A stretch of DNA of 27,050 nt from a virus. Under the pieces are notes generated by a model. The model saw only the letters and a list, made by a program, of their open reading frames with translations, did no database searches and was not told where the DNA came from. The stretch spans positions 1 to 27,050 of the IMG/VR virus record IMGVR_UViG_3300045999_011646, one strand, 5' to 3'. Shown here one piece after another: positions 1,367 through 25,313 of this stretch (within the stretch, counting starts at the first letter, position 1; the number at the start of each line of letters is the position of its first letter). Made by a program: the position numbers and the translations under genes.

Positions 1367-1972
1367 TTATTTTCCTATAATATCAGTAAGTAGTCTATTG
1401 AGACTATCTGCTTTTGTCATTACAATATTAAAATCTCTTTTTTTACCTTCGCTCATCATAAATGCACCGGGAGTTGATGGTTCTTGAACGAAATCAAAGC
1501 AAATTAATTGGAAATCATCTTCAACGATAATTTTACCAGATTCTTTTCTAGTTGATCCAAGACCTCTTGAAGAAATACCAAGCTTAACACCGCCTCTAAC
1601 AAGCGATTTTAAAATATTTCCTGAAGGTGTTTCTAAAACTTTAACTTTACCCATGACGTTATCGCCTTCCCACCACATTTTTGTTACCATGTGGGAAGTG
1701 TTTTTAAGATTGATTACAGAATCATCTGGGTGGTCTAATTCGCCAAGAGCACGACGATCTTCTATCAATTTTTGATAGACATCAATCTCTCTTTGTAGAA
1801 TTTTACGAGAATATATTCTACCGTTACCATTTTCTTGATTTGCTTTTTGCATTATGCCTGTTAAGATAAGCCCACCTGTTTTGACAAATAACTTTTCATC
1901 CTCTGTCAAAAGATCTTGACAGACTCCACCTTCGCATAATTCATAAAATTCTCTAAGTAATTCTTTTCCCAT
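1367..1972 (-). CDS. Prohead maturation protease, T4 gp21-like (201 aa)
   Basis: This is the serine protease that cleaves scaffold and internal head proteins during prohead maturation. Visible features are GRIYSRKILQREI (residues 51-63), ELDHP with the candidate catalytic His81, GISSRGLGS with the candidate nucleophile Ser134 or Ser135, and the downstream strand CFDFVQEPSTPGAFM. These match the herpes-assemblin/gp21 fold family of phage head proteases, and about 200 residues is the usual size. The first 28 residues form a charged helical stretch that may be a self-cleaved propeptide. The gene follows the 217-residue gene by two bases and precedes a small virion protein gene. Candidate substrates are the leader-bearing proteins at 1-93, 1975-2628 and 3104-5950. 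Confidence 0.85.
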   Translation of the reverse strand: MGKELLREFYELCEGGVCQDLLTEDEKLFVKTGGLILTGIMQKANQENGNGRIYSRKILQREIDVYQKLIEDRRALGELDHPDDSVINLKNTSHMVTKMWWEGDNVMGKVKVLETPSGNILKSLVRGGVKLGISSRGLGSTRKESGKIIVEDDFQLICFDFVQEPSTPGAFMMSEGKKRDFNIVMTKADSLNRLLTDIIGK

Positions 1973-1974
1973 GT

Positions 1975-2628
1975 TTATTTTATTCCAGCTGGATTAATCA
2001 AAATGGTAACTGTACCAGGTTTTGGGCCTTTATCTGGAAACATTGACCCTACATATTTTGCATTTGGTTTGTTAAGATGTTTTTGCAAAGCGGATAGTAT
2101 TTTAATATTGTTATTTTTATCTTGTGCTGGAACGACAACTTTATAAAACCCACTTTCTTCATCAAAAGCGACAGAAGAATCTGACGCTGCGGTAGCAGCA
2201 CCTTGTGAAGTGGCAGTAGGAACTGGCGTAACTTCATCAACGACAAAGCTACCCTCTTCTCCTTTTGGCTCAAGACCAGCAGCTTTAGCTTTATCAGCCT
2301 TAGCTTTAATTATACTATCTATATATTTTTGCGTTATTGCTTGAAGCTCAAAAGAGTCCATACCAGGTTTAGCACCAGGTATATCAATTGTATCTACATA
2401 CTTATCACCAGATAATTTATAGTGCATTTCTACTTTCATTGGATCAGCTTTAGCGGTACTAACGCCGCCAACACCAAGTAAAGGTGCAGCTAAAGCTAGG
2501 CCGCTAAGAAATCTTTTTATCGGTCCTTCTTGTAATTCTTCTTCGTTGATAATTTCAATTTGCTCTAGGCGAACTTTTTCAAGCTCTTCTTTTATTATTT
2601 CTTTTAGATATGTTTTTGTAATAATCAT
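1975..2628 (-). CDS. Candidate internal head protein with prohead leader and signal-like segment (217 aa)
   Basis: I do not recognise the mature domain. The first 34 residues (starting MIITKTYLKEIIKEELEKV) form a highly charged helix ending ELQE-GP, a textbook (L/I)-x-E-G site for a gp21-type protease at residues 32-35. Straight after comes a basic-hydrophobic segment (residues 37-61, PIKRFLSGLALAAPLLG, ending AKA before DP) that looks like a secretion signal. The rest is soluble and contains an Ala/Lys helix near residues 115-125 and a C-terminal alpha/beta part from about 165. The start has a usable RBS (AAGGA, spacing about 7). It lies directly upstream of the protease gene. An internal protein processed in the prohead is the simplest reading; membrane insertion after ejection is speculation. 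Confidence 0.6.
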   Translation of the reverse strand: MIITKTYLKEIIKEELEKVRLEQIEIINEEELQEGPIKRFLSGLALAAPLLGVGGVSTAKADPMKVEMHYKLSGDKYVDTIDIPGAKPGMDSFELQAITQKYIDSIIKAKADKAKAAGLEPKGEEGSFVVDEVTPVPTATSQGAATAASDSSVAFDEESGFYKVVVPAQDKNNNIKILSALQKHLNKPNAKYVGSMFPDKGPKPGTVTILINPAGIK

Positions 2629-2653: not shown

Positions 2654-2681
2654 GGCCCCTAGAGTTTTTTCTCTAGGGGCC
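2654..2681 (-). other. Perfect 11-bp GC-rich hairpin without U-tract
   Basis: GGCCCCTAGAG (2654-2664) and CTCTAGGGGCC (2671-2681) are perfectly complementary around a six-base loop, all A on the transcribed strand. Neither side carries a T-run, so it is not a standard intrinsic terminator on either strand. It lies 26 bases before the start of the 1975-2628 gene and contains the stop codon of the small ORF at 2659-2757. An RNA stability, processing or translation-control role is likely. Confidence 0.8.
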
Positions 2682-2757
2682 AAATACAGCTACCGTTGCA
2701 ACAACGTCTTACAGGTTGGAGCATATAGCGACGGATGTATGTAACTTGGTTACGCAT
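2659..2757 (-). CDS. Small ORF, 32 aa, Cys/Arg-rich, with very strong RBS
   Basis: An ATG at 2757-2755 is preceded by GGAGGTGATC ending four bases upstream, a 10-base complement of the 16S rRNA 3' end. The frame gives 32 residues beginning MRNQVTYIRRYMLQPVRR, then CCNGSC, and ending PLEKKL; TAG stops it inside the 11-bp hairpin. The peptide is basic (five Arg, two Lys) with three Cys close together and resembles nothing I know. By hand count the 104 bases 2654-2757 are about 47% G+C, well above the surrounding genes. The ORF overlaps several inverted repeats, so the conserved object may instead be a structured RNA with the reading frame incidental. The strength of the RBS is the main argument for translation. 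Confidence 0.45.
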   Translation of the reverse strand: MRNQVTYIRRYMLQPVRRCCNGSCIWPLEKKL

Positions 2758-2760
2758 GTT

Positions 2761-2776
2761 TGATCACCTCCGATCA
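2761..2776 (-). promoter_or_regulatory. Ribosome binding site displayed in a hairpin loop
   Basis: On the transcribed strand UGAUC and GAUCA (5 bp) flank the six-base loop GGAGGU, the Shine-Dalgarno core, three bases before the ATG of the small ORF. The stem would present the RBS in the loop or modulate access to it. The 3' side of the site extends the 16S complement to GGAGGUGAUC. Confidence 0.55.
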
Positions 2777-2778
2777 TA

Positions 2779-2788
2779 ATATAAATAG
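2779..2788 (-). promoter_or_regulatory. Conserved intergenic motif CTATTTATAT (copy 1)
   Basis: The 10-mer reads CTATTTATAT in the direction of the genes and ends 21 bases before the small-ORF ATG. Identical copies lie upstream of the genes starting at 20179 and 25284. It is a candidate phage late-promoter element; the role is inferred only from recurrence and position. Confidence 0.4.
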
Positions 2789-2792
2789 TGAA

Positions 2793-3089
2793 TTAAGGTT
2801 GTTTTTTCACTTTTATTGTTAATCCGTCATCGTCAGCAAGACGACTTAGTAAATATGATGTTCCTGAAGAAATACACCCAGCAATAAACCAATTAAATGA
2901 TAAATCTAAGAAAAATGAGTTAAATATTCCAACCCAGAATCCCATACACATGGCGCACTTAAGCATATATGAGATATATTCATTATTTAATGAATTTATA
3001 GCCACTCTTGGTTTTTCAAATAGCTTGCTATAGACAACAATCATTGTCATACCATAGCAAGCTAATATAAAAGTCAATAATTCCATCAT
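2793..3089 (-). CDS. Small membrane protein with CxxC motif (98 aa)
   Basis: A hydrophobic 98-residue protein. The N-terminal segment (about residues 3-20, LLTFILACYGMTMIVVY) is a transmembrane helix. A second hydrophobic region spans about residues 45-80, and between them lies LKCAMCMGFWVGIF, in which Cys-x-x-Cys abuts a membrane segment. The C-terminus is charged (ADDDGLTIKVKKQP) and probably cytoplasmic. The layout resembles small conserved membrane proteins of T4-like marine phages and DUF1360-type proteins; I cannot name a function. Two ATGs open the frame (3089, 3086). Neither has a Shine-Dalgarno sequence, and TATAAT ends six bases before the first, which suggests a leaderless message. 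It follows the 948-residue gene by 14 bases. Confidence 0.65.
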   Translation of the reverse strand: MMELLTFILACYGMTMIVVYSKLFEKPRVAINSLNNEYISYMLKCAMCMGFWVGIFNSFFLDLSFNWFIAGCISSGTSYLLSRLADDDGLTIKVKKQP

Positions 3090-20190: not shown

Positions 20191-20200
20191 ATATAAATAG
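20191..20200 (-). promoter_or_regulatory. Conserved intergenic motif CTATTTATAT (copy 2)
   Basis: Identical in sequence to the sites at 2779-2788 and 25304-25313. It lies between the terminator U-tract and the RBS of the 67-residue gene, where a promoter would be needed. The proximity to the start codon (11 bases) would leave a very short leader. Confidence 0.4.
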
Positions 20201-20205
20201 TATAT

Positions 20206-20238
20206 AAAAAAACAGGGTGGCATTTTAAGCCACCCTGT
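20206..20238 (-). terminator. Strong intrinsic terminator after the large fibre gene
   Basis: On the minus strand ACAGGGTGGC (20238-20229) pairs perfectly with GCCACCCTGT (20221-20212), ten base pairs around a seven-base loop, followed by a run of T to 20206. It lies 22 bases beyond the stop of the 20261-22168 gene and is the clearest terminator in the window. Confidence 0.92.
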
Positions 20239-25303: not shown

Positions 25304-25313
25304 ATATAAATAG
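25304..25313 (-). promoter_or_regulatory. Conserved intergenic motif CTATTTATAT (copy 3)
   Basis: Identical to the motifs at 2779-2788 and 20191-20200 and placed 19 bases before the ATG at 25284, in the 37-base gap after the 335-residue gene. Candidate phage promoter. Confidence 0.4.

Follow-up and report, generated by a model that had tools for sequence, protein, structure and literature searches.

A micro-gene with a two-cysteine peptide and a register-locked downstream hairpin in the head-assembly cluster of uncultivated T4-like phages

The interval at positions 2654-2788 of a ~27-kb virus record (IMG/VR record IMGVR_UViG_3300045999_011646) is best explained as a dedicated micro-gene of a head-assembly cluster. 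We refer to the whole 27,050-nt stretch of this record as the window. On its minus strand, the micro-gene comprises 32 codons plus TAG at 2659..2757 (MRNQVTYIRRYMLQPVRRCCNGSCIWPLEKKL). Comparison across related phages shows the micro-ORF to be a real protein-coding gene, near-universal and syntenic in its lineage, and started from its own Shine-Dalgarno site. The original prediction, made from the window alone, had proposed three readings: a small basic host-takeover peptide, a structured RNA that engages ribosomes, or control of the downstream head gene. The peptide stands, with codons kept in about 250 loci, while host takeover finds no support because the gene is fixed in the head-assembly cluster and, in the freshwater clade, has its own promoter-like motif upstream. 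If real, it would rank with the shortest genes known to be conserved, since several phages have a version of 16 codons, and it is carried almost universally by a widespread aquatic phage group.

Genomic setting and lineage

Profile matches identified T4-type terminase, portal (Portal_T4) and gp21 protease (Peptidase_S77) genes in the window. In gp21 and portal, the closest named phages are Flavobacterium phage immuto and Microcystis phage Mel-JY01, at 39-51% protein identity. This places the window in an uncultivated T4-like lineage, perhaps the 'Far-T4' phages (PMC4360716). The phages carrying the micro-gene form a large, widespread group of uncultivated aquatic T4-like phages. In Mel-JY01, a gene annotated as ribosomal protein S21 lies near gp21 (L229:5062-5289).

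The head-assembly cluster around the micro-gene consists of terminase, portal, DUF1360 and gp21. In the window, the upstream gene (2793..3089, minus strand) encodes a 98-aa DUF1360-type membrane protein with a CAMC motif. The next gene downstream (1975..2628, minus strand) encodes a 217-aa protein of unknown function, and the gp21-type prohead core serine protease lies at 1367..1972 on the same strand. Across the lineage, the micro-gene is positioned between the gene for the DUF1360 CxxC membrane protein and that for the gp21 prohead protease. In most loci its start codon lies close to the DUF1360 stop or overlaps it, with overlap in many, and in some loci another gene intervenes between the two. 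The gene downstream of the micro-gene varies between loci.

Conservation of the micro-gene

The 32-codon ORF described in the original prediction is present, with its ATG at 2757 (minus strand), three cysteines, five arginines and a TAG inside the downstream hairpin (hairpin 4). This end is atypical, as the window has TGG where relatives such as L168 and L085 have TAG, so the last 7 residues of the window ORF are read through the hairpin. Proposed products range from 16 to 46 aa (mostly 16-36), nearly all ATG-started behind a ribosome site.

Relatives were gathered via gp21 and via the neighbouring membrane protein, and the micro-ORF was not used for this purpose. With a first regular expression, the micro-ORF was recognized ahead of gp21 in 121 loci and overlooked in another 13. 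Apart from L161, which is truncated at its contig edge, and L205, the overlooked loci proved on reading to carry diverged versions (LPVVRRCCNGS, IPRVANCCRGS, IPEVRRCCSGS, TNCRRCCSGSC) or typical ones extended by long tails. A DNA pattern for QPVRRCCxGS-stop was found in at least 120 viral contigs, and among the matches listed, 120 of 120 adjoined gp21 and/or the membrane-protein gene. Such contigs were chosen for the peptide and were thus left out of the selection and cysteine statistics. The hairpin, stop-context and tree analyses used all loci unless marked as unbiased.

Conservation centers on a core of 14 codons (RYMLQPVRRCCNGS; 2689..2730, minus strand) with the consensus [KR][WY]xLQPVRRCCxGS. 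The original prediction had suggested testing the codons in related loci. Among 73 unique 42-nt cores, pS was 0.82 and pN was 0.26, giving a ratio of 0.31 in frame, versus 1.46 and 1.33 in the two other frames. This difference implies that the core codons are selected for the peptide. Hence, two findings mark the micro-ORF as protein coding: purifying selection in one frame and a start codon with a ribosome site.

The micro-protein had no profile match in PHROGs or Pfam, and a literature search for the core string found no paper. Genes this short are easily missed in family libraries such as those searched. Phage small genes of unknown function are a known class, with over 2 million predicted small genes as reviewed in PMC11323111, and the micro-gene family may stand nameless in published catalogues. 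Searching cultured phages with tblastn gave no credible match, and the micro-gene was not found beside actinophage, megaphage, immuto, Mel-JY01 or P-SSM7 genes. We also rejected a cellular source of the peptide: of 38 pattern matches in genome contigs, only L243, L263 and L268 had the full motif beside DUF1360, and these lie in phage-like MAG contigs; the remainder look like chance.

Two recoding possibilities were discarded as well. Selenocysteine or a suppressed stop does not fit the codons found after the core, which include UAA, UAG, UGA and sense codons, and a search for frameshifting from the micro-ORF into the next gene showed no consistent frame. In one locus (L186), the interval between DUF1360 and gp21 holds, in this order, a micro-ORF segment (YIRRYMNQPV), an ORF for a GIY-YIG-like homing endonuclease and another partial micro-ORF (MIENGFYLPVVRHCCKGA), which looks like the insertion of a mobile endonuclease into the micro-gene.

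A two-cysteine rule

All 73 unique cores contain exactly two cysteines in one of two spacings, and none has one or three. CCxG followed by a non-cysteine residue accounts for 65 of the 73, and CxxGC for the other 8. The third cysteine of the window peptide sits just outside the core. On a gp21 tree (FastTree, 121 loci), the switch from CCxGS to CxxGC required 4 changes, at least 3 of which are forced by strongly supported branches. The rule was also kept in loci selected by their hairpin, including the new variants CKKGC, CKSGC and CKAGC. The last core residue is variable (S, C, A, N, Q, R or K). This two-cysteine rule is the main reason to consider thiol chemistry.

A hairpin in register with the core

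Hairpin 4 (2654..2681, minus strand) is present as originally claimed, with arms at 2654-2664 and 2671-2681 that reach 15 nt at 93% complementarity once extended. It overlaps the ORF end in the window and is the freshwater form of a register-locked downstream hairpin. A 146-nt region folds better than its shuffles (z -3.8), mostly because of hairpin 4. Among 80 unbiased loci, the outermost G-C pair of the best hairpin falls 8 nt (37 loci) or 9 nt (15 loci) past the last core codon, with 12 loci having other offsets and 16 having no hairpin. Three stem classes have this common start. The window's freshwater clade has long stems with A-rich loops, one marine clade has stems of the GNRA type, and many others have a 5-bp stem closed by a UNRYG loop. 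The register is kept even where the codon after the core is a sense codon. In six loci (L162, L176, L182, L183, L187 and L198), the stop after the core is absent, so that translation continues through the hairpin and yields tails such as VRVAPA.

The commonest form, YCRN-5bp-UNRYG-5bp, was examined most closely. All five pairs form in 78 of 79 sequences chosen by loop alone. In a 46-sequence alignment, double changes occurred at 4 of 6 pairs, and covariation was above all 500 shuffles on every measure, which is strong support rather than a probability since kinship among sequences can exceed such shuffles. A peptide-blind scan of the collection for the hairpin gave 81 new pattern places, and the peptide stood in exact register at 75 of the 80 that were readable (67 by script motif and 8 divergent ones by eye). 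The other 5 look like chance in GC-rich DNA. Hence, the position of the peptide predicts that of the hairpin exactly, and vice versa, which makes it decidable whether the peptide acts freely or on the ribosome.

One rival account, that the hairpin is an ordinary terminator or 3' stabilizer and the peptide an unrelated late structural or host-directed microprotein, is unlikely. The stems do lie directly behind the stop codon, and some have T-runs. However, there is no U-tract at the hairpin in the window and none consistently in relatives, as an intrinsic terminator would have. In addition, copies of the UNRYG hairpin number 85 at the micro-ORF versus 5 elsewhere in 2.23 Mb, and the exact register holds even without a stop. 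Rfam gave no family match in the window; local scores were below gathering, the best being freshwater-2 at 19.4 bits versus 49.9 in L214. The freshwater-2 matches in the window lie elsewhere, and control genomes also give matches.

We regard as very improbable a second account, in which the peptide is an RNA-binding factor that recognizes the hairpin behind its own gene for autoregulation or antitermination. The peptide is short and basic, it co-occurs with the hairpin, and the commonest hairpin has a 5-bp stem, a pentaloop and a conserved 5' flank, much as lambda N pairs a short basic peptide with the 15-nt pentaloop hairpin boxB. In contrast to boxB, the hairpin here belongs to another loop class, is variable or absent, and keeps an exact register to codons that free binding would not require. 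Moreover, stem class and loop differ by clade, and the hairpin can vanish while the peptide hardly changes.

The context of the stop codon pointed toward the ribosome. A C at +4 is a weak termination context in E. coli. CU directly follows the post-core stop codon in 94 of 152 cases (62%), versus 25 of 1589 other ORF stops (1.6%); in the unbiased subset, it does so in 19 of 48. The influence of the base after the stop codon on termination in E. coli was reported by Poole et al. 1995, as referenced in PMC9841425.

These observations bear on a third account, the main and a serious rival to our preferred reading, to which we give a tentative place with the chances against it: a ribosome-coupled nascent-peptide element, in which the core in the exit tunnel, the stop-CU and the hairpin would together pause the ribosome at the end of the micro-ORF. 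The hairpin would lie 5 nt past the codon in the A site, the pause would tune how the head operon is translated or how stable its mRNA is, and the released peptide would have no job. Pausing would account for the constant +8/+9 start of hairpins from unrelated stem classes, with or without a stop codon, for the recovery of the peptide in register by a scan blind to it, and for the CU at stop +4/+5. In most loci the stop directly follows the core, and the N-terminus is free; arrest peptides, ~20 residues in length (PMC7829197), share this arrangement. Like SecM, TnaC and ErmCL, the micro-gene carries a short conserved stretch toward the end of a very small ORF, with an RNA structure downstream. 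Unlike them, it has two switchable cysteines, a variable last residue, no fixed regulated gene and a hairpin that is sometimes absent (16 of the 80 unbiased loci). The two-cysteine switch has no evident role in a tunnel, sense codons can take the place of the stop, and no single downstream gene would be regulated across all loci. Were pausing correct, the nascent two-cysteine peptide and the register-locked hairpin would form a new type of ribosome-coupled module that paces or senses head-operon translation, a proposal drawn from comparative patterns that we rate as possible but more probably wrong than right.

The bypass signal of T4 gene 60 is also alike in combining a nascent peptide, a stop codon and a hairpin, and KYKLQNNVRRSIKSSS resembles KWKLQPVRRCCKGS. 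We rejected homology because the resemblance is weak, being equalled by 18 of 20000 random 46-mers for the best variant and by up to 1901 for others. A check for bypass of this type found no consistently open frame or frame relation downstream of the micro-ORF.

The DUF1360 neighbor and a preferred reading

Arg28 and both cysteines of the CxxC are invariant in 64 homologues of the upstream membrane protein. A DUF1360 Pfam match was obtained for 50 of the 64 at E up to 0.1 (best 3.4e-13), and the window copy falls below the cut-off (14.8 versus 21 bits). An AlphaFold2 model of the window protein (pLDDT 88) matched viral DUF1360 models with Foldseek (prob 1.00, E 0.009), and Foldseek against the PDB returned nothing useful. 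The neighbor is thus of the DUF1360 / phrog_781 type of phage membrane protein, to which the micro-gene is not homologous. In the actinophages Rhinoforte, Sour, Sixama and Pumpernickel (L230, L231, L232 and L234), a remote homologue immediately precedes the portal gene, and the micro-gene was not found beside the actinophage members examined. Such placement next to portal genes may point to a general role of these proteins in portal biogenesis. In 92 loci of the sister T4-like clades of immuto and Mel-JY01, neither DUF1360 nor the micro-gene was found, apart from one marginal DUF1360 match on the opposite strand. The joint absence makes a link to DUF1360 plausible, but it may rest on a single gain.

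Our preferred reading, held with slightly less than even confidence, is that a minimal two-thiol peptide acts with the DUF1360 protein in head assembly and that an RNA module paces the ribosome at the peptide end. We infer that the peptide is the minimal two-thiol partner of the membrane protein encoded by the adjacent gene. Its CC (or CxxxC) and the invariant CxxC of DUF1360 would form one four-cysteine site, probably binding zinc, at the cytoplasmic face of the membrane, within a complex for portal or prohead assembly there. The hairpin and stop-CU would act on the ribosome finishing the peptide, either slowing termination or spacing it from the next cistron. They would be auxiliary because the hairpin is missing from some loci. 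On the gp21 tree there are 17 changes of hairpin class, which likewise suggests that the hairpin is labile and probably auxiliary.

We favor the two-thiol peptide for two reasons: the cysteine rule is a chemical one, and loci that have lost the hairpin still keep the peptide. Purifying selection, synteny, the actinophage portal adjacency and the start near the DUF1360 stop also count for it. Against it stand the possible single gain, the intervening genes and the occurrence of DUF1360 elsewhere without a detectable micro-gene. A strict hairpin register kept without a stop codon is not expected if only a free peptide matters; the register and the stop context imply that the ribosome finishing the peptide also matters. 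If real, this reading would place DUF1360, a family without known function that adjoins portal genes in unrelated phages, in a possible head-assembly pathway.

Upstream elements and remaining predictions

The claimed motif and Shine-Dalgarno site are both present on the minus strand, as CTATTTATAT at 2788-2779 (2779..2788) and GGAGGTGATC at 2771-2762 (2762..2771), and the latter is the only exact copy in the window. The four claimed hairpins are likewise present, although conservation is restricted to the type of hairpin 4 and does not extend to hairpins 1-3 as structures. For hairpin 1, full pairing is limited to the window copy, L085 and L166, with 0-4 of 5 pairs elsewhere; many relatives retain GGAGGT but not the stem around it. 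We thus rejected display of the anti-SD sequence by hairpin 1. Hairpin 2 is a 5-bp stem within variable N-terminal codons for which no common helix was evident by eye in relatives. Hairpin 3 (CGTTG/CAACG) is the spelling of R-C-C-N/S-G codons when arginine is CGY, and it weakens when arginine is AGR or the next residue is lysine; we dismissed it as a selected RNA in favor of a coding by-product. Accordingly, a structured RNA engaging ribosomes survives from the original prediction as the downstream hairpin and not as hairpin 1. Control of the downstream head gene by the micro-gene is possible, and is unproven because loci vary in which gene comes next and roughly one in five has no hairpin. 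The G+C content of 2654-2788 is 43.7% rather than the claimed ~47%, versus 33.6% for the window.

Across the window and 13 clade loci, CTATTTATA is intergenic in 15 of its 16 sense occurrences, where intergenic DNA makes up 3-5% of the sequence, and it directly precedes the micro-ORF in most clade loci. From this enrichment and placement, CTATTTATA is probably a late promoter of the window's lineage. A second junction in the window, at 20191-20238, consists of a gene end, a perfect 10-bp hairpin (20212-20238), CTATTTATAT (20191-20200) and the next gene, in a terminator-promoter-like arrangement. A third sense copy of the CTATTTATAT motif lies at 25304.
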